A DNA stretch of 64,000 nucleotides from Symbiodinium natans (lineage: Eukaryota; Sar; Dinophyceae; Suessiales; Symbiodiniaceae): assembly GCA_905221605.1 (NCBI GenBank), contig CAJNDS010002386.1, positions 186,001 through 250,000 of the forward strand, given 5' to 3'. Made by a program: the position numbers and the translations under genes. The notes beneath the pieces are model-generated. The model saw only the letters and a list, made by a program, of their open reading frames with translations. It was not told the DNA's origin and did no database searches. Positions 3,262-63,000 of the stretch are shown in pieces. Position 1 is the stretch's first letter, and each line of letters begins with the position of its first letter.

Positions 3262-4215
<954 letters not shown>

Positions 4216-28576: not shown

Positions 28577-28909
28577 GCGGTTCCAACGTCTCGCAGGACC
28601 TCACATGACGTGTCTCGCAGGCAGCCAAGAAGATCCTCGGTGGCATTGACGCGTGCCCCCCTTAGCATCTCTGAATCGGGATACGGGGCATGATGATTTG
28701 TGGTGATTTATGGTGGGAATGCATGGGAATGCCAGCAGACTGCAGGCCCTTGAAGAAGCTTGATCTCACGGTCCCTCCTGAGCTTTTGGAGCAGGCACAT
28801 ATATATATATATATGGTACCCCCCCCCCAGAACCCACCCTTAAAGACATAAAGCTCGATATTTGGTTGTTTGAGTATCAGAGACCAGTTCAAAAATCCAC
28901 TTTCCCCGG

Positions 28910-29243
28910 GGGCGTGTTAATTAAAACGGGCCCCGTTTTAATTAAAACGCCTGGAACCAAGAACCAAGAACCAAGATTTCCGGAAAAGTCTTGGGACGAA
29001 TCTTGGTTCCTTGGGGATGGGGGCGTTTTAATTAAAACGGGCCCCGTTTTAATTAAAACGCCTGGAACCAAGAACCAAGAACCAAGATTCCCAGAAAAGT
29101 CTTGGGATGAGTCTTGGTTCCTTGGGGATGGGGGCGTTTTAATTAAAACGGGCCCCGTTTTAATTAAAACGCCTGGAACCAAGAACCAAGAACCAAGATT
29201 CCCAGAAAAGTCTTGGGACGAATCTTGGTTCCCGAGGTAGAGG
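28910..29243 (+). repeat. Direct array of three 111-bp units (left half of foldback)
   Basis: Unit starts are at 28910, 29021 and 29132, exactly 111 bases apart. Each unit has a perfect palindrome with two TTTTAATTAAAA boxes around CGGGCCCCG, then GGAACCAAGAACCAAGAACC, then an internal dyad in which ACCAAGATTC pairs with GAATCTTGGT around AGAAAAGTCTTGGG, and a GGGGATGGGGGCG linker. Since 111 is a multiple of three, frames stay open across the array (a 37-residue repeat); I regard this as a by-product. Confidence 0.95.
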
Positions 29244-29288
29244 GCCGTGTGAATTGCCTGGCTCCTCAACCTGACGGACCCAGGTCCT

Positions 29289-29720
29289 GGGAACCAAGAT
29301 TCGTCCCAAGACTTTTCTGGGAATCTTGGTTCTTGGTTCTTGGTTCCAGGCGTTTTAATTAAACCGGGGCCCGTTTTAATTAAAATGCCCCCACCCCCAA
29401 GGAACCAAGATTCATCCCAAGACTTTTCTGGGAATCTTGGTTCTTGGTTCTTGGTTCCAGGCGTTTTAATTAAAACGGGGCCCTTTTTAATTAAAACGCC
29501 CCCATCCCCAAGGAACCAAGACTCATCCCAAGACTTTTCTGGGAATCTTGGTTCTTGGTTCTTGGTTCCAGGCGTTTTAATTAAAACGGGGCCCGTTTTA
29601 ATTAACATGCCCCCATCCACTGGGAAATAAGACTCGTCCAAAGACTTTTCTGGGAATCTTGGTTCTTGGTTCTTGGTTCCGGCCGTGTTAATTAACACGG
29701 GCCCCGTGTTAATTAACACG
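29289..29720 (-). repeat. Inverted array of four 111-bp units (right half of foldback)
   Basis: The same 111-bp unit in reverse orientation. The CGTTTTAATT (or CGTGTTAATT) landmark recurs at 29351, 29462, 29573 and 29684, again exactly 111 apart. The last copy has TTAATTAACACGG changes at both half-sites, showing compensating change within the palindrome. The two halves flank a unique spacer of about 45 bases (29244-29288), so the whole could fold into a very long hairpin, while each unit can also form its own cruciform. Confidence 0.95.
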
Positions 29721-29829
29721 GTGCCCAGACCATGGGCACCAAGAATCCCCGAGTTGGATTGCCCCCCAAAACCACCGTAAGGAAGAAACTCATCGCCATG
29801 AGTTCTTGGGGGTGGGGGGGGGGGGGGCA

Positions 29830-30033
29830 AACTTGAGTCATTTCATGCAGTCAGATTCAGGGCAGCTGTCTTGGTTTGTTGTTCGCTATACAGCAAAGTA
29901 TTAAGTTCATATTTCTTACTATAGCTCAAGAAGTCCTACATAAATATGAGCACAGAAAACTCTGATACGCATATTTGGAAATTACACGTTTTAAGTAAAA
30001 CCGGGTCCGAACCAAGAACCAAGAATAACCCTG
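29830..30033. other. AT-rich junction with a foldback-unit remnant
   Basis: After a G run at about 29814-29827 the sequence becomes AT-rich. At 29987-30028 a degraded piece of the 111-bp unit reappears (ACGTTTTAAGTAAAACCGGG and then AACCAAGAACCAAGAA), directly before the telomere-like motifs. Confidence 0.7.
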
Positions 30034-30090
30034 GACCTCAAAATTTAAACCCGAAACCCTACCCCTAAACCCTAAACAATTTAGGCTTTA
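30034..30090. repeat. Interstitial telomere-like CCCTAAA motifs
   Basis: The sequence holds CCCGAAACCCTACCCCTAAA, then CCCTAAAC, then the reverse motif TTTAGG. CCCTAAA/TTTAGGG is the Arabidopsis-type telomere unit, also used by dinoflagellates. Only a few units are present and both orientations occur, so this is a relic or an internal telomeric site and not a chromosome end. Confidence 0.65.
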
Positions 30091-30099
30091 GGAACAAAG

Positions 30100-31480
30100 G
30101 TTTAGATAGGGCTGAAACATTAAGACCCCGCAGGCACCGAAGCATGATTATTCCTGAACAAAAACCATTGAAACAATCGGGTCTTAGTGCAAGGTTTTGG
30201 ACAAGGCTTCAGCCAGAATGTTTAACAAATAGGGTTCACAGGAGTGGGCCTAAACATGAAGGATACACCCCGCAGGCACAGAAGCAAGAGAATTCCTAAA
30301 CAATATACGTTGAAAGTATGGGAATAGGGTCTGGCTTTAGAAAAAGGTTCTTTAGGGAAAAGGGTGGGCTTTAGCGAAATGCCTTCAGTGGCGAGGGAAA
30401 CGCAAGTTTATAGGCTGGGTTTCAGACGAAATCTTCAATGAATTACAGGGTTTACAGGAATAGGAAGCATGACTATTCCTAAACAATATTCGTTGAATGT
30501 ATGGGAAAAGGGTCTGGGCTTCAGTAAAATGTCCTAGGGGAAGAGGGTCTGGGCTTTAGTGAAATGCCTTCAGTGACGCGGGGAACATAAGGTTTTGGAT
30601 TAGGCTTCAGCCTAAACCTTCAAGAAGTAGGCTGCCTGACTACCAATATTTGTTGAAAGTATGGGAATAGGGTCTGGGCTTTAGAAAAAGTTCTTTAGGG
30701 GAAAGGGTCTGGGCTATAGCGAAATGCCTTCAGTGGCGAGGGAAATGTTTTACAGGAATAGGAAGGCTGAGCATTCCTAAACAATTTCCGTTGAAAGTAT
30801 GGGAATATAGGGTCTGGGCTTTAGTAAAATTTGTTTAGGGAATATGGTCTTTAGTGAAGTGCATCTAGTGACTCGGGGAAACATAAGGCTTTGGACTGGG
30901 CTTCAGCCTACACCTTTAAGAGTTAGGGTGGGAACAAGGGTCTGCGCTTTATAGCTGAGGGACAAGGGTCTGTGCTTTAGCGAGATGCCCTCAGTGGCGA
31001 GGGAAGCCGAAGGTTCTGGACTAGGTTTCAGCCTAAATCTTCAATAAATTTTAGGGTTTTCAGGAATAGGAAGCACGAATATTCCTAAACAGTTTTCGTT
31101 GAAAGTATGGGAATAGGGTCTGGGTTTTATTAGAATGTCTTTAGGGAATAGGGTCTGGGCATTTGCGAAATGCCTTCAATGACGAGAGAAAACAACAGAT
31201 TTTGGACCAGGTGCCAGTCTAAACCTTGAAGAAATAGGCTATGCTACTCGTAAACAATATGCGTTGATATAGTGGGAATAGGGTCTGGGCGTTAGCGGAA
31301 CTTTAGTAGCGAGGGAAAATCTAAAGTTTTGGAACAGGCTGTCAGCCTAAACCGTCAACGAATAGGGTTAAGTGAAATTCTCTCTAGTGGCGAGGGAAAC
31401 TTTAAGGCTTTGGAATAGGTTTAAGCCTAAACCTTTAGGGTCTGTATATCTAAACTTTAAACGAATAAACATAGGGAAGC
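30100..31480. repeat. Degenerate satellite (subtelomere-like)
   Basis: A phrase of the form GGGAATAGGGTCTGGGCTTTAG, then GAAATGCCTTCAGTGGCGAGGGAAA, then TTTTGGACTAGGCTTCAGCC recurs with variation. Landmarks for the GAAATGCCTTCAGTG core occur near 30378, 30560, 30720, 30980 and 31170, with diverged copies between; unit spacing is about 120-185 bases. Many copies contain TTTAGGG. GC is visibly lower than in neighbouring DNA and frames are closed. There is no coding evidence. Confidence 0.85.
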
Positions 31481-31757
31481 TCTTTAATGTTTAGTGGAAC
31501 TCTGGAAGGTTTCAGCCAAGGGCTTGTTTGTCAGCTACTAGAACAACTTCGCGTACAAACGGCTTATCTTGGTGTTCAAATTATTTAGGATGAAAGCTTG
31601 GTGAATTCTGCTGCGTGCGACCCGGCGGGGAGGGTCCAACCTCCACCTCCCCACACTGCCCTTACCCATCAGAATAAAGGGGTGGCCCGCCAGATATGGC
31701 ACTTATTATGTCGCAGCCTTCGGGAAAACACCCCGCCCCCTTACACTGTGCTTACGG

Positions 31758-31954
31758 TGGGGGGGGGGGGGGGGTAGCATATATATATATATATATATAT
31801 AGATATACATATATATGTATGTATATGTATACAAACTGGTGTATCCATATATATATATATGTATATATCTATGTATATATATATATATGTATAAATATAT
31901 GTAAATATATGTATATATATATGTATATATATATATATGTATATATATATATGC

Positions 31955-31989
<35 letters not shown>

Positions 31990-31994
31990 CATGC

Positions 31995-32042
<48 letters not shown>

Positions 32043-32095
32043 GTATATATATATATTTATGTATGTATATATATATATATATATATGCACATATA
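31758..32095. repeat. G run and (TA)n/(TATG)n tract
   Basis: A run of about 16 G is followed by about 315 bases of TA and TATG repeats. Open frames rich in Y, I and H on both strands are artefacts. The tract closes the repeat-dense interval that begins at 28.9 kb. Confidence 0.95.
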
Positions 32096-32099
32096 TCTT

Positions 32100-33914: not shown

Positions 33915-34085
33915 GAAAGTGACCGTGGCGACCGCGGTGACCGCGGCGACCGCGGTGACCGCGGCAACCGTGGCGACCACGGTGACCGCGGCGACCGTGG
34001 CGACCGTGGCGACCGTGGCGACCGTGGAGACCGCGGCGACCGTGGCGACCGCGGCGACCGCGGAGACCGTGGAGACCGTGGCCGC
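33915..34085 (+). repeat. 9-bp minisatellite, unit GACCGYGGC
   Basis: Eighteen or so head-to-tail copies of GACCGTGGC or GACCGCGGC with occasional GAGACCGTG variants. It lies just after a CCCTGCAG acceptor (exon start about 33891). One plus frame encodes a Gly-Asp-Arg tripeptide repeat leading into an Arg-rich RERERRR tail and stop. A second frame encodes Ala-Thr-Val repeats ending [13 protein letters not shown], and the minus strand is open too. Which frame is used cannot be decided from composition. Confidence 0.85.
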
Positions 34086-46892: not shown

Positions 46893-48659
46893 GTGCGAGA
46901 AGATCGAGTGTAGATTCGTGGAAGTGTCGGTATTGCAAGGAAACACCGTGGATGGATTCTACGCCATGGCAGGGTGCACGACACCAAGCCAGGTCACAGA
47001 CCGAGGACAGAAAGAAGCAGAGCTCTCCCCCTCTCCCCCTCTCCCCCTCTCCCCCTCTCTCCCTCTCTCCCTCTCTCCCCTCTCCCCTCTCCCCTCTTCC
47101 TTCTCCCTTCTCCCTTCTCCCTTCTCCCTCTCCCTCTTCCTTCTCCCTTCTCCCTTCTCCCTTCTCCCTTCTCCCTTCTCCCTCTCCCTCTCCCTCTCCC
47201 TCTGCCTCTCTCTCTCTCTCTTTCTCTCTCTCTTCCTTCAGGGATGTAAAACTCACATCACAGGATGTGGGGCAACGACCACAAGGATGCATCTTCATCT
47301 TGAAGCATGGGTCAGCCTCTACCAAGTAGAGTTATGGCCTCAGAACCCTTTTTTCTTTAAGACTTCTTGCCCATGATATGTCTCCTAACCCTGAGGTATG
47401 ACCAAATTCAGAAGGACACGCGCTTGCATAAAGTCTGCGCTCGCCATTCTGATCTTGATTGAGATACAGTGACAAGGATTACCCAACAACTGCTCCAACA
47501 AGTCTGGGCAGAACGACCCTCAGTGCAATGTTTGTCGGCCACAAGGTACCAGTAATGCGCCGCCGAGCCTGCGAGGTATTGGTTATACGGGCTCAATGTC
47601 AATGTACCTGCCGAAACGGATCTTGGACAATGCCTCAATTTCAGAAGGCCTGCCGCAGCCGCCAGCCAAAGTGTGTTGCCAGTGTCAATCGCTTTCGACA
47701 GCTCTGCTGTCTAAATCGCTTTCAATCTGAAACGAAGCTGCTTACAAGACACGCGCTCGGAGTCACATAGGCATACCGCTGGAGTTCTATCGGGCATACA
47801 ATTCCTCCTGGTTTCAGCCTCAGGACATGTGTCCAATCTGTCGACCGTCGCTTGTGGCTGCAAACCCAGGTACGAGCCGTCACATTATTTTGACAACCTC
47901 GGCGCAGTAAACCTCTCACAGGTGCGGCGGTGCTACTTGGGCAGCATTCGTTTGAGCCGCTGCCACAATTCATGAGCATGAAAAGGGTGACTGGGTTTAT
48001 CGTGCGGGCAAGCGGCCGGCATGGGGCGGGACTGCATCTCCATAAACACACATGTACTAGTTTGCTTCACGGTTTTCCCAGAGAAATTTCAGACGTTTCT
48101 GTTGCCCATGATAACTTTCTGACAATGACACCGGTGAACCGGTGAACCGGTGAGCTGTATTTAAATTTAGGAGATGACGCAAACAGCATCTTAGGTCGCG
48201 ATACGCGCTTTGTGCAGAGCCGCAATATGCAGACCTACGTGGAGGCGCGGCTTGGCTTTTTCAATGAGCCCTTGTGGTAGGACCTGGTCAGCTCGGCATT
48301 GGCCATCATTGGTCAGAAGACGGCTGAAACTGCCGCAATGCCCCTTCCCTATGAAGAATAGCACCTGCTTGCACGGCTGTTGTCACATAGGCCGGGGCAT
48401 CCCGCCACACGCAGCTCCAGCCTCTAGAGCTCCGTTTATCCTTGCCCGTTTCCGGCCTTAGCGGTTGATTCTTAGCTGACCCGCCTTTAACCCATGTCCG
48501 CGCCTGCTGTCTCGTCTTGGGCGACGTCTGCTGCCCTGTACTCTTGGGGTATGGGGCGCTCGCCGAGGAGCTAGCTCCGCATAGCATCCCCCAAACGCAC
48601 GTTTGAGATGCTTTCGTGTTCGCGTCCAGGCGTGCTTGCGTTCGCGTTCCAGCTCTGGG

Positions 48660-59996: not shown

Positions 59997-60044
<48 letters not shown>

Positions 60045-63000
60045 GCGTGTGCGTGTGCGTGTGCGTGCGCGTGCGCGTGCGCGTGCGCGTGTGCGTGTGC
60101 GTGTGCGTGTGCGTGGGCGTTCGCGTGCGCGTGTGCGTGTGCATGGCGTGCGCGTGGGCGTGCGCGTGCGCGTGCGCGTGTGCGTGTGCGTGTGCGTGTG
60201 CGTGCGTGCGTGCCCTTCTTTTTTGCGTGCTCCCTTCTTCTCTTGGGTTTGCAGGTGCCGCTTTGGAGCTCCCAAGGCCTCTCTGAGAGAGTTGCTGGGA
60301 AGCAGACCGTCGAGCGTAAAGCAGCGATGGAGCGACCCCCCTACATGCAAACTCAGCGGCAGAGGGGCAGAGCAGTCCAGCGCTGAGGTCAGCGCCTTTC
60401 GCTTCCTGCTTGCGCGATTCCGCCTGGACGGCTGGTGGTATGGGGTCCCACTGCTGGTGCGCGGCTCCCTGCTCAACCTGCCAGTCGTCCTGGCTACAGA
60501 CTACCCCCCTGTTCAGACGATCGGAGAGGAATGTCAGAGGAATGTCATGCGGTGATTTGTGTATACATAATTAAGTCAGAGCCGTGCTGCATCCGGCACC
60601 ATTACATGCCCACCATCCGCAAAGCAAAGGCTTAAAGTATTGCTCGATGGCCTCGTGTCTCAGTTGTCGCTCAAGGATCGTGTCCATGTCCGTCATCCTT
60701 GTCGTCTTCATGATTGTGCAAACCACGTTCTGGCCATGGAAGCCTCCACTCATCAATGCTTTGGACTGCGACCCGTCATGAAAAATGAAAGGTCAGCAAG
60801 TTTCTATATGTATATATGTATATCTATGTATATATGTATGTATACATACATGTGTGTTGTTGGACTCGCCTCACTTTCTTCAACACCGCTTTTCTGTCCG
60901 TATGCCGAGGCTGGATCTCCGCGTGCGTCATCCTTCTCGTGGTGTCCGCTGCAATGGGTCTCCCGGAGCTTTCAGGCGCGCAGGACTTGGTACGGACGCT
61001 GCCTTTGAGACTCAGCTCGCATCGCTGCATGGCTGGGAGCTGTTATCTATCCCGACTCAGACGACATGCTCAGCTTCCGCGACATCTTTACCATGTTGGT
61101 CATTGTGCTTCTCTTTGGCTCTGTGCTCTTCACACTGGGCTGCGTTGGCCTGGGGACTTGGCATGTCTTTGGACCGCGGGGCACGCAGTGCGGGAACGTC
61201 CAATATGATCACCTGCAGGCGTCTCCCTGCTGTTACGGTCCCTGGGCATCCAGGAGCGTTGACGACTAGTCGAGAAGTTCATTGATCACGGCAGTTCGAG
61301 CTTTATCTCGCTATCCAGGAGATAATCCTCACCCTCGGACCCATCCCGCAGGCGCAGCGCGCCACTTCCATGCACAAATCATGCACACATCATGGGCACA
61401 AATCGAGCAAAGCAGCGGTACTTTGAACCACAGCGATGGCTCAGGTAGCGCAGGCATTGCAGAGTCTGGGCCCAAGAGTGCCAAGTATTGCCAACTCACA
61501 TTTTGACATCTTTTTCCAAGGGAGTGTATGCTCCTAGGGCCGGCTTTATGAAGTCGCTTCGGCACAGTCACAGGAAGGAGTCGGAAGGAGCACGCAGATG
61601 CCCTATCTATGTGTCTATCTCTGTATCGTGTCCATATCTGTATTCACCTGAGGTATTAGCGCGGAGCTTTCTGAGGCGCGTACTTGCACCAGCGTGACAC
61701 CTGGATGTACAAAAGTCAACAGTCGCCTGCAGAAATTTGGTTCCCGCAGATCTTTGGTTTCTTGGGTAACAGCACCAGAGCTTTGTATGTGCAGTGTGGG
61801 CAAATGCTCTTCTTTTCGATTCGCTTGGCCTAGCAACCGTTCCGCTTTCGTGCAAAGAGTCGATGAAGTCGGCTGGCACAGGCAGACGCGGCTGAGATCA
61901 AGTCTCGCGCAGCTCGGCAATGGAAGACAGGTCCACCAGAGCCTTCAGAATTTCTTGCAAGTCCCAATGGCTCTTGACAAGAGAAGGCTTCCATTCTTGT
62001 GGCCAAGGTCGAGGACCTGGCAGTGTACGACGTGACGCAGATCTCTCGTTGCATTACGGTGGTCGCGAAGGAGGCCTCACTGTTTTGCCAGCGTTCCCAC
62101 CATTATCTTCCGTTTGCCGCTTTCTGTTCGAGCCTGTGCCGGACATTGGGTTCTCCCACCGTTAGGTGCTTTGCACCGACAGCCCCGCCTTTGACTTCAC
62201 ACGCCGAGTCAGTGTTCCAGCTGGAGAACATGTTTTGAATATTTCTTCTCTGCTTCAGCTCAAGATAAGAGATATCGTAGTCGACCCGAGTGGACCAAGC
62301 TTGGCAAGTCTTCATCGGGTTGGAACCTATTGGGAACAACAGTTAAAGTCGCTGAGAGAGGGCGGTTATTCGGGAATGTTCGAATTCGGGTTTTGCTGAT
62401 AGACCTCGGCCGTCAGCGCGAAAGAACCAATCCGCTTCCCCATACTTCCCAAGAAGTGGTGATCAAGGTGCAAAGTCTTTCGAGCCTGGACGAAAAGGCT
62501 CCGCATTTGCCAAGGTTTATGTCAAGGTTTCCCAAGGTTCAGCAATTCACTTCGGGTATCTTCGGGTGTTCCAGGTTTGTCAGGAAGCTCCTGGCCAGTT
62601 TTCTGTGTAGCGCATTCTGGGCTTTGGAGAAGATGCAGGGGCGCGAGTGGGGCTTCCATGGATGCAGATGCAGGGGCGCGAGTGGGGCTTCCATGGATGC
62701 AAGTAGGGCTGCTCCGTCTCCCTGTCCTGCTGACATTACAAGCTGAGAGCCAAGAAGGCGGAACTGCAGCTTGTGCGCGACACAAGGTTCAGTCAAAAAG
62801 GAAGACCAAAAAGTCCAAGCAACAGGCTCGGCCATGTGTGCAGCGTCTGCGGTGTGAATTGGAGACCAAGCTGTTCGTTCTGCTCCAGAGTGTACATCCC
62901 TAAGCAGCACCAGCTGTAGGAAAAGGAGAGCCAGCCTTTGACTGAAGAGATTTGCAGAGGCTCCGAAGACTTTGTCGGCATCGCACCCACAGAATCCTGC

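Follow-up and report, generated by a model that had tools for sequence, protein, structure and literature searches.

A foldback array of 111-bp units in Symbiodinium natans, probably the left-end part of a non-autonomous DNA transposon

Seven copies of a 111-bp unit that face each other around a short spacer raise the question of what kind of structure they form, and to what larger piece of DNA they belong. The locus lies in a stretch of 64 kb from Symbiodinium natans, which was analysed as a whole and is referred to as the window. Based on the comparison with related copies in the same genome, the array is very probably the left-end part of a non-autonomous DNA transposon with terminal inverted repeats (TIRs) at positions 28815-31778. 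An earlier note on this DNA had suspected a foldback or mobile element. The mobility was upheld, whereas the array turned out not to be the element itself, but an internal part at the left end of a TIR transposon.

Anatomy of the array

The seven units extend from 28908 to 29720 and comprise three direct units (28908-29239, plus strand), an inter-arm spacer (29240-29285) and four inverted units (29286-29720, minus strand), which agrees with the head-to-head arrangement described before. The outermost inverted unit (29616-29720) belongs to the GTGTTAATTAACAC class. The longest pair of arms has a length of 326 nt, a complementarity of 97% and a separation of 55 nt, while the matches of the innermost units are 47 nt apart. 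A single copy of the CCAAGAACCAAGA core motif was found 3' of the array (30012-30024, plus strand).

Each direct unit is composed of a 41-bp AT-rich palindrome and a core dyad of about 60 bp around CCAAGA. A perfect palindrome had been claimed for every unit. The motif TTAATTAA was indeed present in all seven units, but all 20 pairs of the 41-bp palindrome are formed in only two of the seven, the other five showing 18-19 of 20 pairs. The second dyad that had been proposed was found in the units as well, and the fold of unit 2 reached a z of -8.4 compared to 200 dinucleotide-preserving shuffles.

Strong single-strand folds and arms with 97% complementarity could also point to a role as RNA, in which read-through transcription of the 326-bp arms would yield double-stranded RNA as a source of small RNAs or as a silencing trigger. 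This role is improbable, since no structured RNA in the 64-kb window matched Rfam at the gathering score and since each unit is palindromic in itself, which is unneeded for long double-stranded RNA. The spliced-leader pattern was likewise absent from the window. Another explanation would be a coding repeat, as 111 is divisible by 3 and a minus-strand frame of 313 amino acids (28889-29830) spans all seven units. In none of the remaining 20 array loci does the longest stretch without a stop span the whole array; it comprises 71-247 codons, in frames that vary. As the frame is not conserved among the copies, a coding repeat is highly improbable and was rejected.

Borders, target sites and copies of the element

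A search with the window array in its own assembly (759.4 Mb, 2543 contigs) showed that the unit is dispersed, with at least 150 matches on at least 40 contigs with related arrays. Among the 39 other array contigs, 20 were fetched, mostly the best-scoring ones, resulting together with the window in 21 array loci that were read. The dispersed copies are located at different sites with different flanks, and their ends are shared with a coding element. In the BLAST comparison of 20 loci, the similarity of the best copies to the window runs from about 28.80 to about 31.8 kb, thus past the array, and stops in the AT-rich flanks.

The termini read from the copies, GGTACCCC(n)AGAACCCACC on the left and GGTGGGTTCTGGGG(n)TAGC on the right, are mutually inverted repeats. 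The pattern GSTACCCCCC occurs at exactly two sites of the 64-kb window, at 28815 (plus) and, in opposite orientation, at 31778 (minus). Together with the termini of the copies, this restricts the dispersed element to 28815-31778 (2,964 bp) with the array as its left part, and not to the edges near 28.90 and 29.75 kb that had been expected. At both ends the element carries short terminal inverted repeats of the type GGTACCCC(n) / GCTACCCC(n), and it is embedded in an (AT)n microsatellite. The left TIR GGTACCCCCCCCCCAGAACCCACC (28815-28838, plus strand), as determined from the ends read across copies and the pattern scan, is preceded by ATATATAT (28807-28814), the presumed 8-bp target duplication within an (AT)n run (28799-28814). 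The right TIR GGTGGGG(n)TAGC (31756-31778, minus strand), which in the window copy lacks the TTCT seen in other copies, is followed by ATATATAT again (31779-31786) as the presumed second copy of the duplication, at the beginning of a long AT-rich microsatellite (31779-32096). For both flanks, the length of the duplication was taken from other copies.

The window copy of the element carries no gene. At the place where the gene-bearing relative C1369, described below, has its open reading frames, a non-coding filler with degenerate telomere-like (TTTAGGG-like) interspersed repeats was found (30100-31640). This filler is a patchwork rich in TAGGGTCTGGGCTTTAG that resembles decayed TTTAGGG telomere repeats, and it has at least 109 matches in the genome. 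Besides the AT-rich microsatellite at the right end, the window contains further long simple repeats at 33921-34082, 47023-47237 and 60000-60204, and a (TG)n-type microsatellite of about 950 bp at 3262-4214.

The flanks were scanned by end pattern in 27 sequences (window, L009-L028, L037-L041 and L054). An A+T content of at least 90% in the adjoining 10 bp was determined for 13 of 13 left ends and 17 of 18 right ends, compared to 1.0% of the window positions; several ends escaped the pattern, including the right end of the window copy and the left end of L009, which is altered and has A/T at 8 of its 10 flanking bases, as well as L021, which lacks a recognisable left end. Both ends were found in seven copies. 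The target duplication amounts to exactly 8 bp in L012 (AAATAAAA) and L016 (ATATATTT), neither of which shows a match at 4, 6, 7, 9, 10 or 12 bp. L028 fits 8 and not 10 bp, L015 shows two mismatches at 8 bp, L014 matches at 7 and 9 bp only, and the pure (AT)n sites of L013 and L018 give no readable length. Altogether, the element probably inserts into AT-rich microsatellites with a target duplication of 8 bp.

Compared to the window copy, the divergence amounts to 1.0% for L009, 1.4% for L018, 1.5% for L010, 4.4% for L014, 4.6% for both L012 and L013, and 5.7% for L019, and all pairs among these eight copies differ by 0.6-6.6%. Between L012 and L013, which lie in different flanking sequences, the difference is 0.57%, indicating a spread that is recent on that scale. 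The identical left flank of L011 and L012 probably reflects one duplicated insertion.

Among the 21 array loci, 18 are arranged head to head and three (L023, L024 and L026) are one-directional. Chimeric palindromic reads occur in long-read assemblies, and an inverted half that originates from such a read had been named before as the finding that would overturn the structure. Since the head-to-head plan recurs at 18 of 21 loci, the flanks differ where ends were read and the units match by position between loci, an assembly artefact is extremely improbable. The number of units is variable (for example 3+4, 2+3, 3+2 and 3+6). Together with the three one-directional arrays, this indicates that the precise arrangement cannot be essential.

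When the units of seven well-preserved copies are numbered from the spacer, those with the same number show 92-99% identity between copies, compared to 83-95% for the units within one copy; the position labels of L014 and L018 are uncertain due to missing units. This observation can be explained by an array that was mobilised as one block and underwent little homogenisation later. The matched changes in both palindrome halves of the window end unit, which had been attributed to selection or gene conversion acting on the symmetry, are real. The same paired GTGTTAATTAACA blocks were found in the end units of L009, L011, L012, L013 and L018, and L010 and L014 show them with one or two further changes. 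In total, 11 of 112 units carry both blocks, mostly as the outermost unit of their array. Since the change is common to several copies, it was inherited and not made at the window locus. Local gene conversion of the window end unit was consequently rejected, the matched changes representing an old class of units.

Over 93 distinct units, the palindrome halves pair in 89.1% of the cells, while the best of 300 column shuffles, which treat the units as unrelated and leave their kinship uncorrected, reached 84.8%. This pairing is consistent with a constraint on the symmetry. Among the changed cells, 233 single changes outnumber 54 double complementary ones, and 22 double changes are non-complementary, which counts against such a constraint.

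Gene-bearing relatives and family assignment

Among the copies found, C1369 is the only intact gene-bearing one with a 111-bp array. It comprises the same left end, five array units, ORF1, ORF2, ORF3 and the same right end, in this order. ORF1 encodes a protein of 320 amino acids, ORF2 is an ATPase-like frame of 650 amino acids with the P-loop GWPGVGKT, and ORF3 is a transposase-like open frame of 423 amino acids. C696 and C1888 are degraded relatives, in which pieces of the ORFs, an array unit and AT/terminus sequence follow each other as in C1369. The right terminal repeat behind the ORFs of C1369 and the relics C696 and C1888 argue against a foreign insert, which was rejected, and show that the ORFs belong to the element. 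Judged by these similarities, the window element is part of a lineage in which the copies with genes encode a predicted P-loop ATPase-like ORF2, followed by a transposase-like ORF3. Between its array and ORF1, the C1369 element contains a second tandem repeat (L017 5400-6160) with about 148 bp per unit and inverted motifs of its own.

In the genome, at least 125 ORF3-like and at least 75 ORF2-like matches were found. After removal of second pieces of a locus, 96 ORF3 loci and 66 ORF2 loci remained among the matches listed. For 37 of these 66 ORF2 loci, an ORF3 is located not more than 4 kb downstream on the same strand, compared to 0.035 expected pairs, and ORF3 was never found on the upstream side of ORF2. 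ORF2 and ORF3 are a gene module. On the contig of the window, three transposase-like loci of the ORF3 family lie in a row 2.4-12.5 kb past the right end of the window (C2074:252421-262475). Eleven further ORF3-like copies with identical scores (C292, C657, C868 and eight other contigs) have a frame of 516 amino acids that is 34% identical to the C1369 protein; these apparently represent a recently multiplied family.

An alignment of 13 ORF3 proteins, in which the row of C1369 is without its first residues, showed four invariant cysteines, two invariant aspartates, a third aspartate in 12 of 13 proteins and a third block with GTQxxDRxW. None of the 13 members matched a Pfam transposase, and PDB sequence-profile and NCBIfam searches gave nothing meaningful. 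Searches for relatives in viral contigs (ORF3 and ORF2) and in prokaryote genomes (ORF3) confirmed none.

The order of the ORF3 residues and the acidic blocks presumably resemble the blocks of Merlin transposases. The left end of the element starts with GG, a Merlin trait (5'-GG), while the right end read inwards starts with GC, and the duplication of 8 bp in L012 and L016 agrees with the 8 or 9 bp of Merlin elements. Taken together, the duplication length, the GG start and the residue pattern suggest a membership in Merlin. On the other hand, the domain DDE_Tnp_IS1595 (PF12762) was found in 0 of 13 ORF3 members, and none of its 20 matches in the genome lies at a listed ORF3 locus. The IS1595 zinc ribbon (PF12760) matched weakly in 1 of 13 members (E 0.36), the four cysteines being invariant. 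The ORF3 profile was also compared with a single Merlin domain, that of C791, which is a weak test, and the probability amounted to 1.2%. Due to these four observations the element is not filed as Merlin, yet Merlin is the nearest named superfamily.

As described in the accessible text of PMC8101967, the Merlin family Sy.m_F1 of Symbiodinium microadriaticum has 8-bp target duplications, an IS1595-type domain with an E of 0.2 and a 5' tandem-repeat block duplicated in opposite orientation. It thereby resembles the window element in duplication length, weak domain score and inverted repeat block, while its 51-bp TIRs, its length of 2.57 kb and its 2.3 units of a 52-bp repeat differ from the element with 111-bp units. 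Likened by description, Sy.m_F1 appears to be the nearest precedent for the architecture of the array. The words ATPase, P-loop, helicase and palindrom are absent from the main text of PMC8101967.

Other known systems were compared as well, and for Mutator no transposase model matched among the 13 ORF3 members. The target duplication of Mutator usually comprises 9 bp. According to the accessible text of PMC8227079, the plant families MiMs, MuTAnT and Micron (TA-microsatellite MITEs and Mutator-like elements) are likewise non-autonomous, located in TA stretches and of uncertain driver. This likeness is one of description; these families are linked to Mutator (PMC8227079), and the window-type copies L012 and L016 give 8 bp. 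The missing Mutator Pfam match in the 13 ORF3 members and the 8 instead of 9 bp in L012 and L016 argue against a Mutator-like element, L014 fitting 7 or 9 bp. An 8-bp target duplication is also described for Zisupton / KDZ elements in the accessible text of PMC12730594. The KDZ transposase (PF18758) had no match in the genome, in a search whose control was also silent (0 of 14 genomes). Classical foldback (FB) elements carry inverted arrays of short repeats that are able to fold back. There the array is the terminal repeat, whereas here it is one-sided and lies inside a separate short TIR. The membership in FB elements was rejected, the array being internal and on the left side only, with no long tandem-repeat TIRs at both ends. 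The findings agree with a non-autonomous TIR transposon, with terminal inverted repeats at both ends, dispersed copies at different sites, no transposase of its own and ends shared with a coding element.

Possible role of the array

A more distant family allows a comparison of the array with the genes. Its members C1744 and C2326 have an ORF3 with 52% identity to the one of C1369. Over 5,039 aligned bases the two elements agree to 99.86%; they diverge in the AT run behind GGGGGGGGTAGC and have different right flanks. This likeness together with the different flanks suggests that the transposon lineage has been active lately. The left end of C1744, ATATATAT followed by GGTACCCC(n)GGGACCTACC, is of the same end type and target type as in the window element. 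About 125 bp inside this end, C1744 carries a foldback array of its own, one stretch of which folds to a near-perfect hairpin (z = -20).

The AT-rich palindromes differ between the window-type and C1744 families, while the unit core of about 60 bp around the CCAAGAWC repeats aligns between them with 77-86% identity. For C1744, the core is 81% identical to a window unit over 60-65 bp (E 4e-12), and its local score of 67 compares to 40 for the best of 200 shuffles and 24 for the best of 38 control segments of the window. At E 1e-3, the array core was the only non-coding sequence for which the two families could be matched. The coding identity amounts to 65% for ORF2 and 70-75% for patches of ORF3, so that the similarity of the core is not lower than that of the genes, in a rough comparison since BLAST shows best patches only. 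In the genome, 117 sites with the pattern CCAAGAWCCAAGAWCCAAGATTCC were counted, and none with its reversal. Among 40 core-motif clusters listed from the first 100 sites, four (expected 0.10) have an ORF3 locus at a distance of up to 10 kb, in each case with the cluster 4.3-5.1 kb upstream of the locus; the other 36 have none within this distance.

These observations bear on the question whether the array contributes to transposition. One explanation would be a passenger satellite, that is, a tandem palindromic repeat that was born in the transposon and spread by it without a role in transposition. The variable unit number and the three one-directional arrays among 21 fit this explanation, and tandem repeats inside many Merlin elements are viewed as proto-satellites in the accessible text of PMC8101967. 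Against it stands the distant family, in which an array with this core occupies the corresponding place while the remaining non-coding DNA of the two families can no longer be aligned. The similarity of the core between the families also equals or exceeds that of the coding matches. A mere passenger is accordingly rather unlikely. We tentatively prefer, at somewhat less than an even chance, to read the array as a cis-acting recognition site for a protein of the element. This reading is based on the same place behind the left end, the similarity of the core compared to the genes, and the differing palindromes beside the same core.

Each unit would then act as a double dyad, and its many copies would be bound by a protein of the element, perhaps via the zinc ribbon of ORF3 or by ORF1. 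The bound array would mark the left end and help to assemble the transposition complex, and dyads in many copies would fit a dimeric protein within this complex. The non-autonomous copies retain the ends and the array, as would be expected if the proteins of another element need both for mobility. ORF2 may steer the insertion toward AT-rich DNA.

Alternatively, the ATPase-like ORF2 could use the array as an origin-like site or for strand opening during replicative transposition. Palindromes beside AT-rich DNA are common at origins, and ORF2 comprises, besides its P-loop, a weak match to DUF5906 (E 0.055). Since the 14.6 bits of this match are far under the curated cut-off of 27.6, such a site is improbable. 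For the chromatin-site and replication-hotspot readings of the earlier note no support was found, a role in replication keeping just this small probability.

Mu (MuB), Tn7 (TnsC) and IS21 (IstB) combine a transposase with a partner P-loop ATPase, and MuB favours AT-rich DNA. The likeness of ORF3 and ORF2 to these systems is one of plan. It is conceivable, if doubtful, that the lineage represents a eukaryotic DNA-transposon superfamily of its own with two genes, for a zinc-ribbon D-D-D transposase and for a partner ATPase directing the insertion into TA microsatellites, and with a conserved multi-dyad foldback loading site near the left end, in parallel to Mu or Tn7.

With the array as part of a transposon, an unexplained foldback becomes a defined part of a transposon lineage. 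With this lineage it could be studied how a eukaryotic transposon gets into microsatellites and whether a partner ATPase contributes to this. It also points to one route by which inverted satellite-like arrays spread and join AT microsatellites. A larger foldback relative was observed at C2009:153205-155509, where a 2.3-kb array of diverged units is 66-71% identical to the window array, with matches on both strands.
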